Assembly: GCA_019096065.1 (NCBI GenBank)
Contig: JAGUCH010000002.1
Location: 6,832,501-6,896,500, forward strand
Origin: Paracyclopina nana
Lineage: Eukaryota; Arthropoda; Copepoda; Cyclopoida; Cyclopettidae
Reading direction: 5' to 3'
DNA length: 64,000 bases
Positions 3,311 through 36,362 of this stretch are shown here, one piece after another. The notes under the pieces were generated by a model. It saw nothing but the letters and a program-made list of their open reading frames with translations. It was not told the origin of the DNA and searched no databases. A program made the position numbers and the translations under genes. Each line of letters opens with the position of its first letter. The first letter of the stretch is position 1.

Positions 3311-4222
3311 CCGTGTGAACCCGTGTTTGGTGTGTTCGGTGTGTTCGCCGTGTTCGGTGTGTTCAGTGTGTTCGGCTGTTCGCCGTGTTCGGTGTGTTCG
3401 GTGTGTTCAGTGTGTTCGCCGTGTTCGGTGTGTTCGCCGTGTTCGCTGTGTTCGCTCGTGTTCGCTGTGTTCGCTCGTGTTCGCCCGTGTTCGTTGTGTT
3501 CGCTGTGTTCGCTCGTGTTCGCCCGTGTTCGGTGTGTTCGGTGTGTTCGCCCGTGTTCGGTGTGTTCGCCGTGTTCGTTGTGTTCACCCGTGTTCACCCG
3601 TGTTCGGTGTGTTCGCCCGTGTTCGGTGTGTTCGCCCGTGTTCGGTGTGTTCGCTGTGTTCGGCCGTGTTCGCTGTGTTCGGCCGTGTTCGCTGTGTTCG
3701 GCCGTGTTCGCTGTGTTCGGGCGTGTTCGCTGTGTTCGGTGTGTTCGCGGTGTTCGGTGTGTTCGCCCGTGTTCGGTGTGTTCGCCCGTGTTCGGTGTGT
3801 TCGCCCGTGTTCGGTGTGTTCGCTGTGTTCGGTGTGTTCGCCCGTGTTCGGTGTGTTCGCCCGTGTTCGGTGTGTTCGCCCGTGTTCGGTGTGTTCGCCC
3901 GTTATCGCCCGTGTTCGGTGTGTTCGTCCGTGTTCGCTGTGTTCACCCGTGTTCGCTGTGTTCACCCGTGTTCGCTGTGTTCGGCCGTGTTCGCTGTGTT
4001 CGGTGTGTTCGCCCGTGTTCGGTGTGTTCGCCCGTGTTCGGTGTGTTCGCTGTGTTCGGTGTGTTCGCCCGTGTTCGGTGTGTTCGCCCGTGTTCGGTGT
4101 GTTCGCTGTGTTCGGTGTGTTCGCCCGTGTTCGGTGTGTTCGCCCGTGTTCGGTGTGTTCGCCCGTGTTCGGTGTGTTCGCCCGTGTTCGCTGTGTTCGC
4201 CGTGTTCGCTGTGTCTCGCTGC
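3311..4222 (+). repeat. 19-bp minisatellite array, GTGTTCG orientation
   Basis: About 0.9 kb of units built from GTGTTCG plus 2-3 variable bases. The commonest pair is GTGTTCGGTGTGTTCGCCC (19 bp). Because 19 is not a multiple of three and no register contains a stop, long reading frames run through it; these are a by-product of the repeat and no gene is called. CpG is present in nearly every unit. Confidence 0.95.
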
Positions 4223-4255
4223 GTGTCTGCCCGTATTCGCTGCTAGTTTCAGTTC

Positions 4256-5605
4256 TAATTTTGCACTAGGAGACCAGTCTTGTCAAAACTAGATGAAAAA
4301 AAGGCCAAAGTTTGGTCTTTGTCAAAAATGCAATTTTGCTCTTGCAATTATTCACATTACGCGAGTTTCGCTCCAAGCTCAAAAAGTTGCAAAAATATAT
4401 GCTATTTTCAGATCTTATTTTGCACTAGGAGACCAGTCATGTCAAAACTAGATGAAAAAAAGGCCAAAGTTTGGTCTTTGTCAAAAAATGCTATTTTGCT
4501 CTTGCAATTATTCACGTTACGCGAGTTTCGCTCCAAGCTCAAAAAGTTGCAAAAATATGCCAGTTTCAGATCTTATTTTGCACTAGGAGACCAGTCATGT
4601 CAAAACTAGATGAAAAAAGGCCAAAGTTTGGCCTTTGTCAAAAATGCAATTTTGCTCTAGCAATTATTCACGTTACGCGTGTTTCGCTCCAAGCTCAAAA
4701 AGTTGCAAAAAAATATACTATTTTCAGATCTTATTTTGCACTAGGAGACCAGTCATGTCAAAACTAGATGAAAAAAAGGCCAAAGTTTGGTCTTTGTCAA
4801 AAATACTATTTTGCTCTTGCAATTATTCACGTTACTCGTGTTTCGCTCCAAGCTCAAAAGGTTGCAAAAAAATATGCCAGTTTCAGATCTTATTTTGCAC
4901 TAGGAGACCAGTCATGTCAAAACTAGATGAAAAAGGCCAAAGTTTGGTCTTTGTCAAAAATGCTATTTTGCTCTAGCAATTATTCACGTTACGCGTGTTT
5001 CGCTCCAAGCTCAAAAAGTTGCAAAAAAATATGCTATTTTCAGATCTTATTTTGCACTAGGAGACCAGTCTTGTCAAAACTAGATGAAAAAAGGCCAAAG
5101 TTTGGTCTTTGTCAAAAATGCTATTTTGCTCTTGCAATTATTCACGTTACGTGTGTTTCGCTCCAAGCTCAAAAAGTTGCAAAAAAATATGCTATTTTCA
5201 GATCTTATTTTGCACTAGGAGACCAGTCATGTCAAAACTAGATGAAAAAAGGCCAAAGTTTGGTCTTTGTCAAAATGCTATTTTGCTCTTGCAATTATTC
5301 ACGTTACGCGTGTTTCGCTCCAAGCTCAAAAGGTTGCAAAAAAATATGCCAGTTTCAGATCTTATTTTGCACTAGGAGACCAGTCATGTCAAAACTAGAT
5401 GAAAAAAGGCCAAAGTTTGGTCTTTGTCAAAAAATGCTATTTTGCTCTAGCAATTATTCACGTTACGCGTGTTTCGCTCCAAGCTCAAAAAGTTGCAAAA
5501 AAATATGCTATTTTCAGATCTTATTTTGCACTAGGAGACCAGTCTTGTCAAAACTAGATGAAAAAAAGGCCAAAGTTTGGCCTTTGTCAAAAAATGCAAT
5601 TAAAA
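4256..5605 (+). repeat. 158-bp satellite, about 8.5 tandem copies
   Basis: The marker CTAGGAGACCAGTC recurs at 4266, 4425, 4583, 4741, 4900, 5057, 5215, 5372 and 5531, giving spacings of 157-159 bp. Units are highly similar and differ by single changes and homopolymer length. The monomer is close to nucleosomal length, as in many satellites. It is not coding. Confidence 0.95.
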
Positions 5606-6052: not shown

Positions 6053-6439
6053 CATGCAATAAGACCACTCCATAGTAAGACCTTTAAAAGCCTCTTTTAA
6101 CAGCAAGGCCAAAGGCACATCAAAAGTTTGACTTTGGCTCATTATCTTCCACGATAAGGTAATGAGCCTTTGCCTCATAGTTTGAGTCAAGTTGACCCAA
6201 ACTATCAAAATTGACTTGGTCAAGAATTTCATGATTTATAAGAAGTAAAGTTAAAGTACCGCGCGATCCGCAAGTTTTCACTCTTCCGAATTCAAAATAA
6301 ATCAATAAGTTTCGGCATTTGCGAATTCAAAAAGTGTAGTAAGTTTGAGTTTGCCTCACATTTTGAGTCAAGTTGACTCAAACTTTTGATTCATTTTGAA
6401 TTCGCTAGAGAGAAAACCTGCGCATCGCGCGGTACTTCT

Positions 6440-7378
6440 ACTTTACTGCTAATAAAACACGAAATTCTTGACCAAGTCAAATTTCAGTCAAAATGTCAAT
6501 TGCAGTTGATAGTTTGGGTCAACTTGACTCAAAATGTGAGGCAAAGTCAAACTTATGACACTTTTTGAATTCGCAAATGCCGAAACTTGCGCATCGCGTT
6601 ATGCTACTAGGTGACTGCTATGAAAACACGAAATTCTTGACCAAGTCAAATTTCAGTCAAAATGTCAATTGCAGTTGATAGTTTGGGTCAACTTGACTCA
6701 AAATGTGAGGCAAAGTCAAACTTATGACGCTTTTTGAATTCGCAAATGCCGAAACTTGCGCATCGCGTTATGCTACTAGGTGACTGCTATGAAAACGCGA
6801 AATTCTTGACCAAGTCAAATTTCAGTCAAAATGTCAGTTGCAGCTGATAGTTTGAGTCAACTTGACTCAAAATGTGAGGCAAAGTCAAACCTTGACACTT
6901 TTTGAATTTGCTAATGCCGAAACTTGCGCATCGCGTGATACTACTAGGTGACTGCTATGAAAACGCGAAATTCTTGACTTAGTCAAATTTCAGTCAAAAT
7001 GTCAGTTGCAGCTGATAGTTTGAGTCAACTTGACTCAAAATGTGAGGCAAAGTCAAACCTTGACACTTTTTGAATTTGCTAATGCCGAAACTTGCGCATC
7101 GCGTGATACTACTAGGTGACTGCTATGAAAACGCGAAATTCTTGACTTAGTCAAATTTCAGTCAAAATGTCAGTTGCAGCTGATAGTTTGAGTCAACTTG
7201 ACTCAAAATTAATGTGAGGCAAAGTCAATTTTTTGATTCATTTTGATTTCGCAAATGCCGAAACTTGCGCTTCGCGTTATGCTACTAGGTGACTGCTATG
7301 AAAACGCGAAATTCTTGACTTAGTCAAATTTCAGTCAAAATGTCAGTTGCAGCTGATAGTTTGAGTCAACTTGACTCA
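6440..7378 (+). repeat. 168-bp satellite, about 5.5 copies, each with a TGAGTCA palindrome
   Basis: GAAATTCTTG recurs at 6461, 6630, 6799, 6967, 7135 and 7308 (spacing 168-173 bp). Each unit carries the near-palindrome TTTGAGTCAACTTGACTCAA (TTTGGGTCAA variant in the first units), which contains TGAGTCA and TGACTCA. The last unit runs straight into the right minisatellite at about 7379. Related but inverted material lies at 6249-6445. Confidence 0.93.
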
Positions 7379-8957
7379 ACAGCGAACGCGGCCGAACACA
7401 GCGAACACGGCCGAACACAACGAACACGGCCGAACACAGCAAACACGGCCGAACACAGCGAACACGGCCGAACACAGCGAACACGGCCGAACACAGCGAA
7501 CACGGCCGAACACAGCGAACACGGCCGAACACAGCGAACACGGCGAACACAGCGAACACGGGCGAACACAGCGAACACCGCGAACACAGCGAACACAGCG
7601 AACACGGCCGAACACAGCGAACACGGCCGAACACAGCGAACACGGCCAAACACAGCGAACACGGCCGAACACAGCGAACACGGCCGAACACAGCGAACAC
7701 GGCCGAACACAGCGAACACGGCCGAACACAGCGAACACGGCCGAACACAGCGAACACGGCCAACACAGCCCAGACACAGCCGAACACAGCGAACACGGGC
7801 GAACACAGCGAACACCGGCGAACACATTCGAACACAGCGAACACGGCCGAACACAGCGAACACGGCCGAACACAGCGAACACGGCCGAACACAGCAAACA
7901 CGGCCGAACACAGCGAACACGGCCGAACACAGCGAACACGGCCGAACACAGCGAACACGGCCGAACACAGCCCAGACACGGCCCGAACACAGCGAACACG
8001 GCCGAACACAGCGAACACCGCGAACACATTCGAACACAGCGAACACGGCCGAACGCAGCGAACACGGCCGAACACAGCGAACACGGCCGAACGCAGCGAA
8101 CACGGCCGAACACAGCGAACACGGCCGAACACAGCGAACACGGCCGAACACAGCGAACACGGCCAAACACAGCGAACACGGCCGAACACAGCGAACACGG
8201 CCGAACACAGCGAATACGGCCCGAACACAGCGAACACGGCCGAACACAGCGAACACGGCCGAACACAGCGAACACGGCCGAACACAGCGAACACGGGCGA
8301 ACACAGCGAACACCGGCGAACACATTCGAACACAGCAAACACGGCCGAACACAGCGATCACGGCCGAACACAGCGAACACGGCCGAACACAGCGAACACG
8401 GGCGAACACACCGAACACGGCCGAACACAGCGAACACGGCCGAACACAGCGAACACGGCCGAACACAGCGAACACGGCCGAACACAGCGAACACGGCCGA
8501 ACACAGCGAACACGGGCGAACACAGCGAACACAGTGAACACGGCCGAACACAGCGAACACGGCCGAACGCAGCGAACACGGCCGAACACAGCGAACACGG
8601 CCGAACACAGCGAACACGGCCGAACACAGCGAACACGGCCGAACACAGCGAACACGGCCGAACACAGCGAACACGGCCGAACACAGCGAACACGGCCGAA
8701 CACAGCGAACACGGCCGAACACAGCGAACACGGCCGAACACAGCGAAAACGGGTGAACACAGCGAACAAGGGCGAACACAGCGAACACGGGCGAACACAG
8801 CGAACACCGGCGAACACATTCGAACACAGCGAACACGGCCGAACGCAGCGAACACGGCCGAACACAGCGAACACGGCCGAACACAGCGAACACGGCCGAA
8901 CACAGCGAACACGGCCGAACACAGCGAACATGGGTGAACTCGGGCATACACAGCGAA
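7379..8957 (-). repeat. 19-bp minisatellite array, CGAACAC orientation
   Basis: About 1.6 kb of CGAACACGGCCGAACACAG units (19 bp), the inverse orientation of the left array. Its dominant dimer (GTGTTCGCTGTGTTCGGCC when reversed) differs from that of the left array, so the two arms have been homogenised separately. Frames are open for hundreds of codons on both strands purely because of the repeat. Confidence 0.95.
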
Positions 8958-14973: not shown

Positions 14974-15042
14974 GCTTGTACCTGGCGTTGGACCGCACTA
15001 TTTCGATCCCAGCATTCGCAGAGCTCGGTTAGCTTCTCAAAA

Positions 15043-15677
15043 ATGAAGGCCCTGGTGAGAAATTGGCACCATTTAACTCTCTTCTATATTTGTCGCATTA
15101 TCCGAACATTGCTTTGCAGTTGGTGATTGCCCTCATCGCTGCCGTCAAGGCAGAGTCCAACCCAGGATTCGTGTACACAGTTGGTGCTAACCCCGCTGTC
15201 TACGCTACTCCCTACACCTACACCCCTTACACTCCCTTGGTCTACAACACCGTTGCCCCCGTCGCTCCCGTTGTCTACACTGCCGGCAATACCTGCAAAA
15301 ATGAGGCTGGTGCTCTCGTGCCTTGCGCCAACCCCGCCGCAGGCGTTGTGCCCAATACCGTTTATGCCTACAACAATGCTCCTTTTGGCTATGTCCAACC
15401 TGCCGTAGCTACTCCCGTTGCTGCCGCTGAGACCCCCGCCGCAGAAGAAGGTGTTGTCTCCGTCGAGAAGCGCGAGGCAGATGCCGATGCTGAGGCTGAA
15501 TCTTTGTTCTACGGATACTACGGATACCCAGGATTTGCTGCATACCGCCCTTACTACTCCGCTTACAGCTACTACGGCCTTCCCTACACTTACGGAGCCG
15601 GATACTATGCCTCTCCTTACTTCTACGGAGCTGGTTGCCGCAACGCCTATGGAGCCCTTGTTCCTTGCGCCAAGTAG
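15043..15677 (+). CDS. Secreted Tyr/Ala/Pro-rich structural protein
   Basis: Exon 1 is only four codons (15043-15054); exon 2 is 15120-15677. Together they start MKALLVIALIAAVKA, a clear signal peptide. The body is rich in Tyr, Ala, Pro and Gly. A motif of two Cys around an (A/Y)GALVPCA core occurs twice, as GNTCKNEAGALVPCANP and GCRNAYGALVPCAK. A dibasic site, VEKREADADAEAE, lies between the halves and looks like a furin/propeptide boundary, giving a C-terminal YGYYGYPGFAAY-type peptide. This is typical of arthropod cuticle or other extracellular matrix proteins. Codons are strongly biased to C-ending synonyms compared with neighbours, suggesting high expression. A poly(A) signal lies close behind. 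Confidence 0.85.
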
Positions 15678-21039: not shown

Positions 21040-22386
21040 CTATACCCAAGTATCTGGTGCATTATGAGAAAATGTAGAGGAACTACTCGCATCTTCAGCA
21101 CTAGTTTCTTCTTCATCAGAGGTAGATGTGGCATTGGCTTCTCCTGAGGCCAAGTCAGCCAAGTGTTTGAACTTGGGCCCGAAGGAGCGTAAGGTGTCCG
21201 ACCAATCCCTATCTGGTTCTAAGCTATCGAGGCTCGAGAAAGACGTGGCAGCGCTGATGGAACGTCCGAAGCCTTCCCATCTGTATATGAGGAGCTCATC
21301 AGACGGAAGGTCCGCATAGGGATCCGGCATGAGTAAGCGTTCATAATTTCTTGGCTTCACTACTAGGGGTGGGGGAGCTGGCTGCTGGCGTATTTGAGGC
21401 TGCTCATAGTGAATCACGTACGGAGTTCCACTCTTCGGCTCATCGTTTACCTCCAGCGCTTGAGGCTGTTTCTCAGCCCTTCTCCCTTTGAAGCAGCACC
21501 AGCCGAAGCAAAATGCCAGAATGAAGACGATGACGATGAGCACAATCGGAACGATGACAGCCAAGGCAATGCCAATCTTGGCCTCGAGAGACAAATCAGT
21601 GATTTTGTTGGGCGACACTACCGTCACTGCCACTCGGGCTGGGGCTGAAATGACGACCTCTCCAAAAGAGTCTGTTTGCGTGGAGAAGCAGTCGAGGTAC
21701 GAGTCTCCTTTCTTTGCTTTGTACGTAATAGTGCTATCGAAAACGCAGAGTTCATTGTAAAGCCTCAAGCTGTTGATTGTGCAATCTCTCTTTGTCTCGT
21801 TGACAAGTCCGTAATCCGCGTTGAAGTAGATGTCACCGTTGATGGACCAACCAAAAATGCGGTCATTCTGCTGCGGACCATACACTGCATTTGAGGAGGA
21901 GCACCGCACCTGCCTGGCCTCGTTTTCATTCAACGTTAATGCATTTTGATCCAAGGCTGGAATGGCTTCTCGCAAAGCCACCATTTGGAGCATCAAGGGA
22001 TCCGTGGTGTTGATCCCACCATTGAAGGTGAGCAGTATGCAATTCCATTGTCCCTGGTGAAGACTCGGCTGAAAACTGTCCACACTCGCAACGCATTTTT
22101 TGCCTTCTTTTCTGAGTGCTGCTGGGCAATCGCCGACTTGAATGCCGTCAATTAATCGGCAAGGCGTCCCACTTGTTTGCGGAAGAGTCCAAAAGCAATC
22201 GCTGAAGTCGTCCGAGTTTCCGCAGTACACTTCAAAGCTCCCTCCAGCCGTTTTGGTCACTTGGCCGCTGCAATTTGTCACTGGGACAAATGAGTTGGAG
22301 AGCTTTGATCTTATGCCTATTTCAAAGGTGGCAGTGCTCCAATTTGCAACTTGGAGTAGGACGAAAAATAACGACTGCCATTCCAT
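21040..22386 (-). CDS. Ig-like receptor with cadherin-type catenin-binding tail (receptor A)
   Basis: 448 residues, intronless, starting at the ATG at 22386 (MEWQSLFFVLLQVANW signal peptide). The ectodomain has an atypical Cys-rich Ig-like fold (EVYCGNSDDFSDCFWTLP ... GQWNCILL) and a second Cys-containing domain. The helix IGIALAVIVPIVLIVIVFIL leads to a Cys-containing juxtamembrane segment and an acidic tail. The tail reads SDELLIYRWEGFG, then SFSSLDSLEPDRDW, then TLRSFGPKFKHLADLASG. Classical cadherins have the same order: SLLVFDYEGSG, SLSSLNS, a D-rich stretch, then W-G-x-R-F-K-K-L-A-D-M-Y. The protein ends DTWV, a strong class I PDZ ligand. I infer a surface receptor that binds beta-catenin through its tail. 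No cadherin repeats are present. Confidence 0.82.
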   Translation of the reverse strand: MEWQSLFFVLLQVANWSTATFEIGIRSKLSNSFVPVTNCSGQVTKTAGGSFEVYCGNSDDFSDCFWTLPQTSGTPCRLIDGIQVGDCPAALRKEGKKCVASVDSFQPSLHQGQWNCILLTFNGGINTTDPLMLQMVALREAIPALDQNALTLNENEARQVRCSSSNAVYGPQQNDRIFGWSINGDIYFNADYGLVNETKRDCTINSLRLYNELCVFDSTITYKAKKGDSYLDCFSTQTDSFGEVVISAPARVAVTVVSPNKITDLSLEAKIGIALAVIVPIVLIVIVFILAFCFGWCCFKGRRAEKQPQALEVNDEPKSGTPYVIHYEQPQIRQQPAPPPLVVKPRNYERLLMPDPYADLPSDELLIYRWEGFGRSISAATSFSSLDSLEPDRDWSDTLRSFGPKFKHLADLASGEANATSTSDEEETSAEDASSSSTFSHNAPDTWV

Positions 22387-23659: not shown

Positions 23660-26600
23660 TCACACGAATAATGCTGGAAAGGATACACAATAGATAATGT
23701 CGCCGTGAATAACTCCCTTCGCAATCACATGGGGCTTCGGAATGTCAATAGTCACTTCTCCGTGAAGTACATACTTGAATTTTCTCACCAGAATTGCATC
23801 AAAATTCAAGTCAGCTGCCTCTGGATGAGTAAACTTTGACGTTTTAATGACATGGCACTTGTAGCATGTCTCGTCTTCCTCCTGGATCTCGTAGAATATC
23901 ATATCCTTTGCCAATATGATGGAATCATCGCCGTTGCGCTTGCCCTTAGATGTGGTGATTCTGATAGTCTTGTGGCAGAAGTGCTCACGCATGTTTAGTA
24001 GGTTTGCTTTCAGCATAACGCTTTTGCAGTAGCTTTGCGTGTTATTAAACAGAAAGCTCATCATCTTGCCATAATGCCCCTCATAGTTTTCAGTGCTGAT
24101 TTCGTCGAGCGAGTAATCAGCACGTGTCTCAACAAGGTGGGAAAAGGCATGCCAATTATAGGACGTCATAGTAATGTCGTACACATCGAGCCATTTGTAG
24201 AAAGCGTCGTGTAGCTTCTGGAGATCCACATACTTCTGGCAATAAATCCATAGCTTGTCATCTTTCAAAGCAGCATTTATCAGGAATGAGAACCTAAGCA
24301 AGATTCTTCTTTCGTCAACATACTGATCACCCTCAAATGCATCTGCCAACTGGACAAAACCGCATGTTATAATGGCACAGTACTCCTCTCCTTTGAGATG
24401 GCGAATGCTTTTTGTAAGCTCTCGTGGCTTTCTTGAAAACTCAGAAGGCAAGTCGACTTTTGTCCAAGTTTCATCAAACCTTGAATGCAGAAAGCATGTT
24501 ATATTTTTTTGTTTGTACAAAATATCAACGCCTATAAATCAGGTATAAAACTAACCTAACATAACAAAGTCATGCTTACTTTCGTAGAATTTTCAAAATT
24601 CTCTCAGGGAGCTCTCCAGAACTTGTCCTCACATTGAGCAGCCGCTTTAATAACCCTCTTGCGCATCCTAGGAACAATAGGTGTAAAGGCTCCAATGGCA
24701 CATTTTGAACTATGTCAAAGCCAGGTATCTTCGTGAGCGGCGACGGACCCTTGATGCCCTTAGTGTCATCATCTGTCAACTTGACATTTTTTGCTTTTGC
24801 ATCTTCAATCTTAGCAAGGACTTCCATCCACTTCTCATGCGTCCGCTTTGGTTGGTCCTCTGCCATGTAAGATGGGAACAGCACTGTTTTCTTGGTTCCT
24901 CCTGCACTAGTTGTTCCAATTATTTCGCATTTGGAGCAAGAACAAAACCCTGCATGGCCTTTCATGTTCAGAATTTCGGCTCGCATTGGAGCGTCACACA
25001 GGCATCGGTAAAGAGTGAACCCAGCTTCATGAGCACCCAAAAGGAGAGGCTCCAACAGACTTGAAGTCTTCTTGTATGATCCGTGTCTAGGTGAATGAAA
25101 TAAATTTTTTTAATGCACTACTTTCTTGTCTCTTAAGAAACACATATGAAACAATAATATCTTAAGAGTTTCTTACCTTGTTTTGTGCATGGCTAATACA
25201 TATATTAGTCTGCACAGATCGAACCGAACGCAACAGACATTGACTTTGTCAACACCTGACACTGTCACTGGTATGCCATCAATGCTCAAGTCATAAGCAA
25301 CAGGTGTCTCATCATCTATTTTGTGGATCATCCGATGGAAGTCATACAACTCTTTGACAGTGTGGAAAGTCCACTCGTCTAAAGTTTCGAACTTGTACGC
25401 CTTGTACATCCGTCGGGGGAATTCCGATACATTGTCAATGACCACAAACTCTCTGGTATCACGATTGATTAGAAGAATATCCATTTTGATTGATGGCAAC
25501 TTCTTGTAGTACTTGTTCCTCACTGTCTTGTAGCATGGCATCTTTCCATACTTGTCTCTGTTAGTTGCACAAATCCATGACCACCATGCATCAGCTTGTG
25601 TCTCGTTGAGATGAAGGTTGGCTGAAGCAATCATGAAATAGTTTTCCAGCTTTAAAACGGCTTCATTCCGATCAAGGTCTTGTATCGACTCCAAAAATCG
25701 TGAGAATTCTGCCTGATCGTATTTTGGCTGCAATTTTCCATTCCTTGGATTCACGTAAATGTATTTGCCATCTTCAGAGATGCAGCAGCCATCTGATATC
25801 ATTTCTGGGAAATCGCCATCGTTGATCTTGTCAGACTCTTCAATGGCTTCCATGTCGTTGTCGTTGTCATTGTCAGATTCCTGCAATTGTATATTTTTTT
25901 AAAGTAATTTTCATTGGACTCTTAAGAATCGCTTAAGAATCGCCTATGTCATATGCTAGTTATTATGGACTTACGTTGCTATTACATCCTGACAATGAGT
26001 CGTAGTCAAATTTAGTCGGCTCTCGATGCTCACCAGGAAATTCTTGTTCAATGAGAGCCTCACGTTGAATTGTTTCCTTGATAGCTTCAGCCTCTTGAAA
26101 GTTCTGAGTCATGAAAGACTGCTCGCATACATCGCTGTCAGTTTCTTCAGATGACACAGATGTGGTCCTAAAGCGATGTCTGCTGATCCCATCGAGGCCA
26201 TCACTTTCATTGTCATCCCTTCTGAGTTGTTTCCGAGGTGGCGTTTCGGGTGCTGCGATCTCTCTCTCCGATTCCCTTCTTTGACGTTTTCTTTGCATGC
26301 TCACAAATACCTGGCTCTCTTCCTCTGTGTCAGTTGGCATGCCATCATTGTTGACTTCCTTGTACAACGGCTGACCACAATAGTTCAAAGTCATGTCTAT
26401 AGTTTCTTGTTCAATCGTATTTCCCTGAAAGGTTATGAATTAAATATGATCCGTAATAAAACCCTTATGAAACAGCTATGAAATAAGCGTTTTTTAAGCT
26501 TACTTGATAAACTAAACGTTTACTTACTTGATGTTGTCCCCTAGCTGCTGAACTTGTTCCAGGCTGAGGATTGTTGCATGGATCGTATTCCGGAGATGCA

Positions 26601-32293: not shown

Positions 32294-34342
32294 TCATACC
32301 TCGGTGCCGCTCTCTAAATAACCAGTGCTGCTGTCGCTCGATGAATCTGAGGAGTAGCCATCCACCATCTCAGCTAAATGGTCAAATTTAGGGCCAAACG
32401 CTTTCAGAGTGAGGAACCAGTCCCTTTCGGAGACTTGCGTGTCCAAGCTGGACAAGGAAGTGGTCTTGCTCTGGCATTCTTCATCTTTCCATAGGTGCAG
32501 CTCATCTGGGGACAGGATCAGCTCCAGCTTGGAAACGTCCGAGAGGCTCGTCGATCTTCCTAGCAGAGGCTGAGTGTCCTCAGTTGGCAGTCCCCTTGGA
32601 GGTTTGCTAGGGCCAAAGCTCGCAGACACAGAATGGTCTTGGGTCTCTAGATGGATGCTTTCCCCCTGCCCATTTCTGGGCTCTTTCCGTGCCCCGAAAC
32701 AAGCTTTTTTGGTCCACCAAAGGGACAGAATAATCAGAGCTATCAAGACAATGAGAACGGCCAATGAAACAATTGTGGACAAAACACCGGTGCTGAGCCC
32801 AACTGCCAAGTCAGGATTTTCACTGATCTTCAGTTGAATTGTAGCCTCTGTCACCACCTCATTGCCTACGTCGTCCTTTTGAATCACTTTGCAGGCCAAC
32901 CTTTGGCCAGAGTGAGACAATTTTGCCTCGTATGGAAAAGTGTGGGAGCCTGCTGACATTTTACCATCAATGAAAATTTGCTGATCGCCCACAAACCATT
33001 GAAAAGTTGGGGCTGGAAAGGCGTCTTTGTTGCTGATAGAAACAGTCAGCTCTTTGCTGTCTCCTTCCAGCATTTGTAAAGATTCAGGCAATTGCCTGAA
33101 GTCTACTTGCGCGGGTGTTATAACTTCAACCCTGAAGTATTCTTGTACAGAGTCATACGTGTTATGAAGATTTTCTATGGGGAATGATCGCATGTGGCAG
33201 TTCCACTCTTTTGCATCCTGATGATCTATTTTGCTCCCAGTTATGGAGCAGGTCCTGTCAGATTCATGCTTCACAGTCCATTGCCTACAGACCAAAGTTA
33301 GTTAAATTTTGGCTTTATTTAACACTTTTGACTCCTACCCTCCGTTGGAATTGGTCCATTGGCACACCTTTGGCGAGGAATCGTAGTAAATACTACAAGG
33401 GGTGGGAAATTGGGGGTGCTTCCAGTCACAACTAAGCCAACTGGTGGTAATAGAGCATGTGAAGTTGACTGTCACCGAGGGGGCTAAAATGATCTTTTCG
33501 TTCCTGCAAAGAAAGGACGGAAGTTTTATATGACGCAATCGGCAAACCTCTCCCTAATTACTGCGGATATTTGGTTGTCAATTGGAATTCCCCAGCTTTC
33601 GCTGTTTTTCCCAGAACTCGGTCCAATTCTGATTCCTGCACCACTTGCACTCTCCTCTCATCTGACGTTTCCAAAATATTGTCCTTAGGGAAGAAGCTAC
33701 AAAATCATTGCATTTTTGTTTTTTGCTCAATCTTACAAATGAGTCTTTTTGCTGAACAGAGCATCTCAGCATTTTATCGTTCCAATCTTTGGTGATATTG
33801 ACTGTGATCGAGTAACCCTCCTCGTTGATTTTCTCGTCATTTATGTACCATTTTACAGTTTCTAAGGGGATAGGATCTCCACCAGAGACCGAGCATTCCA
33901 AGGTCCTGAGCCTATTCCCAACAGCTTTCAGAAGGTTAGCCTCAGACATCAAGACTTTGGGCTTCCGAATTAGTTTGAGCTCTGTACTCTTGCCATCTTG
34001 CTCAGAGCCCACCATAGTGCAAGACCACGTGCCCTCTTCACTTGGTCCAATTTTATATAAATCCACAGAACAGACATTTGTTTTTTTCGAAACAATCCAT
34101 TTCTCTTGCTTTCCATCTCGCCGACAAGTTTGCTCGTCGTCAGTGTCCGAAATGCCACACACCTGAGAAGTTGGCCTCACCCACTCACACCTGTGAAAGC
34201 TTCCTGAGGACTGACATTGCAGCTGAGCTGTTTTGCCCTCCACTACATAAAGGGTAGCTGCATTGGAGTCCTTGATGACTGAAAAGGCATCAGCAATGTT
34301 GCACGCGCAGTACGCTACCACAACAATCAGAAAAGCCTTCAT
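32294..34342 (-). CDS. Ig receptor with cadherin-type catenin-binding tail (receptor B)
   Basis: Exons 33737-34342, 33562-33683, 33339-33503 and 32294-33284 give 627 residues. The signal peptide is MKAFLIVVVAYCACNIADA. Four Ig-like units follow: a Cys-rich one (LQCQSSGSFHRCEW...GTWSC), a regular one (LECSVSGG...MLRCSV), another Cys-rich one (VNFTCSITTSWLSCDW) and a membrane-proximal one (PAPTFQWFVGD...RLACKV). After the helix IVSLAVLIVLIALIILSLWW the tail reads SPDELHLWKDEE, TSLSSLDTQVSERDW, TLKAFGPKFDHLAEMVDG, then Ser/Asp-rich. This again parallels the cadherin order (LLxFDYEG, SLSSL, WGxRFxxLADMY). The end, GTEV, is a class I PDZ ligand. It is paralogous to receptor A on the same strand. 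Confidence 0.85.
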
Positions 34343-34675: not shown

Positions 34676-36037
34676 TTAGTCACTCCAGTCTTCATCATCG
34701 GATTGCCCTTCGTCCTCCGAGCTCGAATGGTTCAAGTGCGGAGCTATGTCGTCCAATTTGGCTTGTAGGACGTTGATAATTGACCCATCATTGGCCGGTG
34801 GCGGTTTCTCCTTGGCTGCGCTATCCACGTGCCGCAAGCCGCTCTTATTTGCCCCAAAGCCGCGAATCTCCGAGAGCATATTTGCCCTAGCATCGGGCGC
34901 TTTTTTGATTGGAGCAGCCGGTTTCGAATTAACTGGTGGCGGCGCGGGAAAGCTTGCGATTGGTCCAGGAGGGGGAGGAGGCGGGGGAGGAGGGGGAGGC
35001 GCTACGCTCATTGAGTTAACGCTTGAAGGAACGGGTTTACATTCAGTCTTGGGCACATACCTTGGATGAATTTCTTCTTCAATTGGCGCGTGCTGTTGTA
35101 CCCTTGGAGGCCTCGTTTGCAATTTTTGCGGGGGAGGAGCTGGGGGTGGAGGTAATTCTCTTCTAGGAGGCGGCATCTCTTGCCTTGGAGGCCTGCTAGT
35201 TCTTGCATTCTTTCTCGCTTCCTTCCTACTCATGTGCCTCAAAGCGTCCTCATTTCTCTTAGCAAATGCCTCAATTTCGGACTTTTTGCTAGGATCACTC
35301 AGGAGGGTCATATCCATGCCAGTCATTTGAAAAAGTGCTCTCAGTCCTGGCTCAATCTCATTGGTATTGTCCACCATTGAAAACCCCTCAGTGGACGAAT
35401 GAATTCCTTTAAGGTGGATAAAGTTGGTAGGGGCCCCTATATCAGTCTTGGCAATCTTTTTCTCCCTGGGCTTCCGCCAGGTACCAAATGTGTTTTTATC
35501 TTCCTTTTGCTTTTTCCCTATTGGTGTTGCTGGCCTCTCAAGCTCTACTTTGTGAATGAGCTCGGGCCTTACACCTGGGCCCTGTTCCATTGCAATTCCG
35601 CCTCTCTGTTGCTGGTGACAGCTACGTGATGGATACCTCAGCTTGGCTAGCCTTTTTTCTACCTCTCCATTGAAGTCGTCAGCTTCTTTGACATTGGCAA
35701 AGTACAATGCAGCCATACTCCGATCAGCCTCAAACATGTAAAAATCAGGCCTTGCTCCTCTGAACTGGAATTCTGTGTAGATTTCCTGCTCGAAAATCTT
35801 GATGCGTTGGTCCATGTGGAAGACTTGAATGTAGTAGCTTCTCCTATAGAAGTCTTTGACCAGACAAGCCACACCTGTCGCTTCAAGGTACCAGGGCTGT
35901 TTGCTGACGGAGGTTAAGAGCTGAACAACCGCAGTCGACAGACTTTGTGCTCGAGGATCAAGTAGTTGGAATACCAGATGGTTGTCATTGGGATCCAATA
36001 CACCCGAGGGTCGCGATTTTGAAGCTTGGTGGGCCAT
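34676..36037 (-). CDS. WAS: WASP family actin nucleation-promoting factor
   Basis: 453 residues, intronless, ATG at 36037. The N-terminal WH1/EVH1 domain spans about residues 20-130 (WYLEATGVACLVKDF, YIQVFHMDQRIKIFEQEIY, FEADRSMAALYFAN). A basic linker with KKK precedes a CRIB/GTPase-binding region (DIGAPTNFIHLKGIHSS, GLRALFQMTGMD). Then come long polyproline runs, a single WH2 motif (ARANMLSEIRGFGANK), the central helix and an acidic end with a terminal Trp (SDDEDWSD). The protein activates Arp2/3 to branch actin under Cdc42 control, at membranes. Mammalian N-WASP has two WH2 motifs; one is seen here, as in WASP itself and in fly WASp. Confidence 0.93.
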   Translation of the reverse strand: MAHQASKSRPSGVLDPNDNHLVFQLLDPRAQSLSTAVVQLLTSVSKQPWYLEATGVACLVKDFYRRSYYIQVFHMDQRIKIFEQEIYTEFQFRGARPDFYMFEADRSMAALYFANVKEADDFNGEVEKRLAKLRYPSRSCHQQQRGGIAMEQGPGVRPELIHKVELERPATPIGKKQKEDKNTFGTWRKPREKKIAKTDIGAPTNFIHLKGIHSSTEGFSMVDNTNEIEPGLRALFQMTGMDMTLLSDPSKKSEIEAFAKRNEDALRHMSRKEARKNARTSRPPRQEMPPPRRELPPPPAPPPQKLQTRPPRVQQHAPIEEEIHPRYVPKTECKPVPSSVNSMSVAPPPPPPPPPPPGPIASFPAPPPVNSKPAAPIKKAPDARANMLSEIRGFGANKSGLRHVDSAAKEKPPPANDGSIINVLQAKLDDIAPHLNHSSSEDEGQSDDEDWSD

Positions 36038-36362
36038 CGCTGCCTTATCTCTATTTGCTGGCTGTAGGACTGCTGTTATACTAAGAGTGTGTCATTGCAA
36101 TCGCACTTGTTTAGCTGCTGCTGAAAATGCAGGCAGCAGGCGCACATGCATTGTTTTTAGTAACAATCAAGTTTGCTCAACTATCAGCTAAACAGCTTAG
36201 AAATGAGGCACAGCGTGATTTCTTTGCCTTTCCTGCAATAAAGCAACTGGATTGGCATGAGGCCAACATAAGGTTTTTTATCACCACCGAATAAAGCTTA
36301 TGAATTATTCAGCGGAACAAACATTTATTCACAACAGAGTAAAAATGCCAAAAGTAATAAGC
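36038..36362. other. Intergenic between WASP and OSTC
   Basis: Promoter side of WASP and 3' side of OSTC; no other feature seen. Confidence 0.5.

Follow-up and report, generated by a model that had tools for sequence, protein, structure and literature searches.

The stretch analysed here is a 64,000-nt part of contig JAGUCH010000002.1 from the copepod Paracyclopina nana (the window; coordinates are positions in it). It carries on its minus strand two genes, receptors A and B, for predicted single-pass immunoglobulin (Ig) receptors whose cytoplasmic tails resemble those of classical cadherins. Receptor A begins with a signal-like N-terminus, after which come about 240 residues outside the cell, a single hydrophobic helix and about 147 residues in the cytoplasm, with the following features:

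22386-21040, minus strand: receptor A, a 448-residue single-exon open reading frame (ORF) with its stop (ORF translation, Pfam, fold prediction)
21601..22326, minus strand: ectodomain, predicted to form two Ig domains, residues 21-262 (AlphaFold model, Foldseek/VIA-align, hhalign)
21484..21588, minus strand: predicted transmembrane helix, residues 267-301 within a hydrophobic stretch at 264-302 (hydrophobicity, model)
21142..21330, minus strand: cadherin-like tail, residues 353-415 (PF01049, E-cadherin matches, conservation in the homologue P0001)
21274..21300, minus strand: core motif DELLIYRWE, residues 363-371 (sequence, invariance across relatives)
21142..21213, minus strand: terminal helix region, residues 392-415, counterpart of the E-cadherin WGNRFKKLADMYGG region (PDB match, model)
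21043..21054, minus strand: C-terminus DTWV, of class I PDZ-ligand form (sequence)

The initial annotation had read three strings of this protein, SDELLIYRWEGFG, SFSSLDSLEPDRDW and TLRSFGPKFKHLADLASG, as a cadherin-type tail that could bind beta-catenin. The strings do follow one another in that order in a single minus-strand frame (residues 353-415, 21330-21142), and the likeness to cadherins is borne out by PF01049, the Pfam model of the cadherin cytoplasmic region, which matches residues 359-412 significantly (36.7 bits against a curated cut-off of 24 bits; E 4.4e-9). The best PDB sequence matches of the tail are the E-cadherin tails 3ifq_C (E 1.6e-6) and 1i7w_B (4.2e-6). In a PDB comparison with a three-sequence profile, the E-value was 4.5e-7. 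A small profile was also trained on three cadherin tails only (E-cadherin, EP-cadherin and the genome's own L001). It scored 34.2 bits on A, 31.8 on P0001 and 18.5 on a second homologue, P0002; 5,000 shuffles of the cytoplasmic region of A gave at most 13.7. Among the 1,169 stop-to-stop ORFs of at least 30 residues in the window, the top 12 profile rows hold only the ORF of A and that of B's last exon. The cadherin likeness of A's tail exceeds chance. Within it, D363, E364, L366, Y368, W370 and E371 are invariant in A, P0001 and P0002, and DELLIYRWE has the form D-x-hydrophobic-hydrophobic-x-aromatic-x2-E, which we take to be the consensus of beta-catenin ligands.

The annotation had also described A as an Ig-type protein that is not a cadherin. 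The second half of this description stands, as A has its own Met, signal-like start, Ig-type ectodomain and transmembrane helix in one exon, and Pfam found no cadherin repeats (PF00028) in it at E <= 10; in the positive controls (L005, L029 and L030) the repeats were detected. The first half is supported by the predicted fold and by relatives but not by Pfam, to which A's Ig domains are invisible. The predicted ectodomain fold has 1,334 PDB matches at E <= 0.001 (Foldseek), and the 50 PDB titles listed are Ig proteins or complexes holding them. The VIA-align rows are mostly tied Ig proteins with large root-mean-square deviations, and no particular family is assigned from them. A's first Ig domain carries an FxxCxW motif common to B and to L009, an arthropod Ig receptor gene elsewhere in the genome. 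In hhalign the ectodomain matched L009's Ig at E 1.6e-5 and B's Ig exon at E 3.1e-5, the two A units aligning with the first two Ig domains of B. The only internal hydrophobic stretch over threshold lies at residues 264-302 in A and 456-494 in B; the N-terminus of B also exceeds the threshold, whereas that of A does not and has only a model helix at residues 4-14. Pfam reported no LamG domains in A or B. By sequence and predicted fold, A and B are Ig-superfamily receptors, not cadherins.

Receptor B is a second Ig receptor (34342-32294, minus strand), 10 kb from A. Its exon structure is our own sequence-based splice model, with four exons, 627 residues and GT-AG introns of 53, 58 and 54 nt:

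33737..34342, minus strand: exon 1, with the start, a signal peptide-like stretch, a V-set-like Ig 1 and the greater part of Ig 2 (splice model, Pfam)
33562..33683, minus strand: exon 2, after the 53-nt intron (own splice model)
33339..33503, minus strand: exon 3, after the 58-nt intron, with a probable Ig 3 holding WLSCDW (splice model; Ig 3 by eye)
32294..33284, minus strand: exon 4, after the 54-nt intron, with the rest of Ig 3, Ig 4, the transmembrane helix, the tail, the C-terminal GTEV and the stop
32363..32509, minus strand: cadherin-like tail (PF01049, 32.1 bits against the cut-off of 24, E 1.3e-7; also recovered in the genome search)

Four Ig units were counted by eye, two of them of the FxxCxW type. 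On the ORF that contains exon 1 (34348-33578), Pfam Ig_3 matches above its cut-off in two stretches (E 1.4e-7) and V-set below it (1.6e-4); on the exon 4 ORF, I-set also stays below its own cut-off (E 0.0014). The two ORFs of B gave no cadherin-repeat (PF00028) match at E <= 0.1. A and B can be aligned over the membrane-proximal Ig domain and on to the tail, which is included (BLASTP 2e-12, hhalign 1.4e-12). With the ectodomain match above, this suggests that they probably arose by tandem duplication of an Ig receptor in which the tail was already present. Directly upstream of B, on the same strand, lies a WASP-like gene (34676-36091; WH1 domain E 1.5e-17), which we take from its proline-rich and acidic end to be WASP, presumably an actin-assembly factor; it probably adjoins B by chance.

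The search for relatives that the annotation had proposed yielded two homologues, of which one has an intact tail and the other a tail that is partly eroded; receptor B adds a further gene with this architecture. A search with A and a profile search scored 7,201 and 7,999 candidates from a collection of 5.8 billion proteins, which is probably poor in spliced animal genes. P0001 (465 residues), probably from another species, is 61% identical to A over its whole length, with the same order of parts and a complete tail (PF01049, 31.7 bits). Identity is unevenly spread: the two ectodomain halves share 85/117 and 82/123 residues, the linker before the tail 28/51, the cadherin-like residues 51/63, and the Ser/acidic stretch that follows 8/28. 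P0002 (435 residues, 35%) retains DEFLNYKWEGFG and SLSSLDS. With B as query, 8,000 candidates gave no match at E <= 0.001, in a collection that may hold few spliced animal proteins.

A class I PDZ ligand is a C-terminal S/T-x-hydrophobic, a form shared by the ends of A (DTWV), P0001 (DTWV), P0002 (DSWV) and B (GTEV). The C-termini of delta-catenin and ARVCF are of the DSWV/ETWV type. The PDZ domain of Erbin binds these two C-termini, according to the title of a reference in PMC2553845.

In the 92-Mb genome searched, PF01049 has at least five places at E <= 10, all above cut-off; the figure is a lower bound from scoring the first-look candidates (5/5). They are receptors A and B, L001 (C2, in L029), L002 (C1, in L030) and L005 (C9). 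L029 and L030 are classical cadherins and L005 is a cadherin gene, all separate from A and B (cadherin repeats E 2.5e-86, 6.4e-56 and 1.8e-14, respectively). L029 and L030 also contain Ig_Shg, the Ig-like domain of DE-cadherin (PF24811; 2e-35 and 1.5e-39), followed by LamG units, presumably an arthropod-type layout, and L005 looks to us like Dachsous.

The proposed binding partners are also encoded. Three beta-catenin loci were found (L031, C3:5046000-5051500; L032, C4:4890500-4896500; L033, C2:5164000-5170000), each with beta-catenin 2z6g as best PDB match in a comparison that used one exon per locus (4.3e-68, 5.8e-71 and 1.3e-184). In beta-catenin numbering, all three have Lys at the position of K312; at that of K435, L031 and L032 have Lys and L033 has Arg. 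A degron-like DSG-x-x-SG stretch lies upstream in L032; no DSG-type pattern was found in the stretches of L031 and L033 searched. A division of labour among the three is possible. All keep the N-terminal RVRAAMFPETL segment, which presumably recruits alpha-catenin, and an alpha-catenin segment was located at L040 on C8 (E 1.6e-56). Two other candidates were set aside: L037, the best vinculin-family place, is vinculin and not alpha-catenin, and the Arm-repeat loci L026-L028 look like importin alpha instead of beta-catenin.

The juxtamembrane binding site for p120 is RENIINYEDEGGGE in L029 and L030. With the L029 segment as phmmer query, L030 scored 41.5 bits as positive control, while A and B were absent from the list at E up to 10000 and the scores of P0001 and P0002 lay below the best shuffles. 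The same search led us to reject the idea that the VIHYE segment close to the membrane hides a p120 site.

The reading we prefer, with a probability of roughly 0.72, is that A and B are related single-pass Ig receptors with a tail derived from a classical cadherin, which would couple Ig recognition directly to beta-catenin. Their Ig domains would recognise a partner outside the cell. Inside, by homology, the D-x-L-L-x-aromatic-x-x-E core, the Ser/acidic segment and the F-G-P-K/R-F-x-x-L-A-D/E helix would lie along the armadillo groove of beta-catenin, with the core (D363-E371) at the site used by the cores of E-cadherin and TCF; the residue-to-residue mapping of that site to D363 is our own. 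TCF, cadherin and APC share the same armadillo repeats and are mutually exclusive, as stated in passages of PMC9698307. Beta-catenin bound to the tail would thus be kept from TCF, because the cadherin and TCF sites overlap. It would also bring alpha-catenin and thereby actin, a recruitment expected to be possible because RVRAAMFPETL is kept in all three beta-catenins. The PDZ ligand (DTWV/GTEV) may provide a second anchor to a junctional scaffold, replacing the missing p120 site.

Several observations weigh against this reading. Only two relatives of A were found among the candidates scored from the protein collection, and the more distant of them, P0002, retains little of the terminal helix and does not reach the PF01049 cut-off (21.8 against 24). 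In the tail of B the EG-x-G of the core is missing, and His stands at the position of A's second Leu, where the cadherin L001 has Arg; its score with the three-cadherin profile exceeds the best of its own 5,000 shuffles by a modest margin (18.3 against 13.2). The divergence of P0002 and B is the main warning that some members of the family may have a tail whose function is relaxing or shifting. The structural model of A is also of low confidence in places. The predicted local distance difference test (pLDDT) is below 50 for residues 167-213, in the second Ig domain, and over most of 301-448, the helices predicted in the terminal region (396-401 and 404-413) being of low confidence. The serines S684 and S686 that follow the core in E-cadherin, which we take to be phosphosites, do not align with serines in A, in a register that is uncertain near a three-residue insert. 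Lastly, since no p120 site was found in the tails of A and B, neither can be a full cadherin-like junction receptor.

Among the alternatives, the tail might bind beta-catenin as a sink or competitor, drawing it away from TCF or from classical cadherins and playing no mechanical part. The seeming lack of a p120 site, which leaves only the catenin-binding part of a cadherin tail in view, would suit such a sink, as would the mutually exclusive binding of cadherin and TCF through overlapping sites (PMC9698307, in part). However, A, P0001 and P0002 all keep the PDZ-ligand form, which suggests anchoring to a scaffold, and the ectodomain of A is similar to Ig adhesion molecules, as it is to many other Ig proteins; we consider the sink possible but unlikely. 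Somewhat less probable is that the tail is a cadherin relic that has lost beta-catenin binding and now serves another use, for instance trafficking or Atg8 binding. Pfam now names PF01049 after a Y-type LC3-interacting region (LIR) motif, whose exact register in the tail is here assumed. P0002 is eroded yet keeps the Tyr before the core Asp, and B has partly diverged, as a relic might. A and P0001 point the other way, for they conserve core and helix (the 51/63 residues above), and where E-cadherin has Tyr ahead of the core Asp, both have Ser while keeping the catenin core.

An Ig receptor could also have evolved a beta-catenin motif of its own, like those of APC, Axin and TCF, with no cadherin descent. 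DELLIYRWE does fit the general motif of non-cadherin ligands, and no intron lies just before the tail segment of A or B, whereas L001, judged by its reading frames, seems to have one. Such convergence is nevertheless improbable, given an ordered similarity over about 60 residues in separate blocks and the match to a cadherin-specific Pfam model whose other three matches found in the genome are in cadherin-repeat genes. It is very unlikely that A and B are truncated cadherins, with A left from an Ig_Shg-bearing cadherin after loss of its repeats. Classical cadherins with Ig_Shg do exist in this genome, but the domain was not matched by A (E <= 10) or by B's two ORFs (E <= 0.1), and we rejected the descent of A from one as unlikely on that ground; in addition, the LamG units that follow Ig_Shg in L029 and L030 were not reported in A or B, which share their FxxCxW Ig units with L009 instead. 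Finally, a gene-model artefact, in which a cadherin 3' exon is misjoined to an Ig gene or the gene is a pseudogene, can be dismissed: A is unbroken from Met to stop and P0001 has the same order of parts, which together refute the artefact for A, and the classical cadherins of the genome sit elsewhere with tails of their own.

The direct coupling of A and B to beta-catenin remains our preferred reading, and a bolder extension of it, to which we would give rather less than an even chance, is a second kind of adherens-junction receptor evolved in this arthropod lineage. These would be Ig adhesion molecules with a cadherin tail, binding beta-catenin directly, calcium-independent and p120-free, and served by three beta-catenins of which at least one may be specialised.

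The rest of the window holds features of other kinds. A MAM-domain ORF (E 3.8e-10) and the ORF after it, where a hydrophobic stretch was seen by eye (506-1683), are perhaps another surface receptor, cut or spliced. Similar 19-bp units form two large arrays at 3323-4226 and 7379-8930, as GTGTTCGGTGTGTTCGCTC and, in reverse orientation, ACAGCGAACACGGCCGAAC; the space between them holds arrays of 159 bp (4241-5601) and 169 bp (6378-7379). The first ORF at 19239-20094 matches SelR (methionine sulfoxide reductase B; PF01641, E 8e-9), and a similar stretch was seen by eye in the next ORF. Consecutive minus-strand ORFs at 23660-26439, three of which were searched and gave no Pfam match, read to us like an old transposase gene. 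In the genome, 69 places with the cuticle domain Chitin_bind_4 support an arthropod, and the ORF at 15033-15677 has a copepod-like look.

The annotation knew of no family that combines Ig domains with a cadherin tail, and searches of open-licence PMC papers turned up no description of one. Direct coupling of surface adhesion receptors to beta-catenin has, to our knowledge, been taken as the business of cadherins; adhesion molecules of the Ig type work through adaptors, for instance afadin or ankyrin. Nectins are among the closest known systems. With classical cadherins (E-cadherin, L029 and L030), A and B share the core D-x-L-x-x-aromatic-x-x-E-G, SLSSL, an acidic spacer and the F/W-G-x-R/K-F-x-x-L-A-D helix, the last compared without that of L030. 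Unlike them, A and B have an Ig ectodomain and a PDZ-ligand-like C-terminus, and no cadherin repeats, LamG or p120 site were found. L009 (C9, around 2121655-2121981) shares with them the extra-cysteine pattern of the first Ig domain (B against L009, BLASTP 2e-5), but has a long cytoplasmic part without a PF01049 match; it is a candidate sister gene that may show the state before capture of the tail. Fasciclin III is presumably a possible relative of such FxxCxW receptors.

TCF/LEF, APC and Axin differ from the membrane receptors A and B in being cytosolic or nuclear and are not known to have SLSSL or the LAD helix. They share with A and B the general core motif, which faces the part of beta-catenin around K435 and K312 (PMC9698307, in part). 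If the proposed coupling is real, a catenin-binding module can move to an unrelated ectodomain and be kept. A and B would then offer a clean test of whether a p120-free tail can build a junction or signal from it, and a natural fusion of Ig domains with a cadherin tail would be the evolutionary version of the engineered chimeras that probe which part of a cadherin gives a junction its strength.
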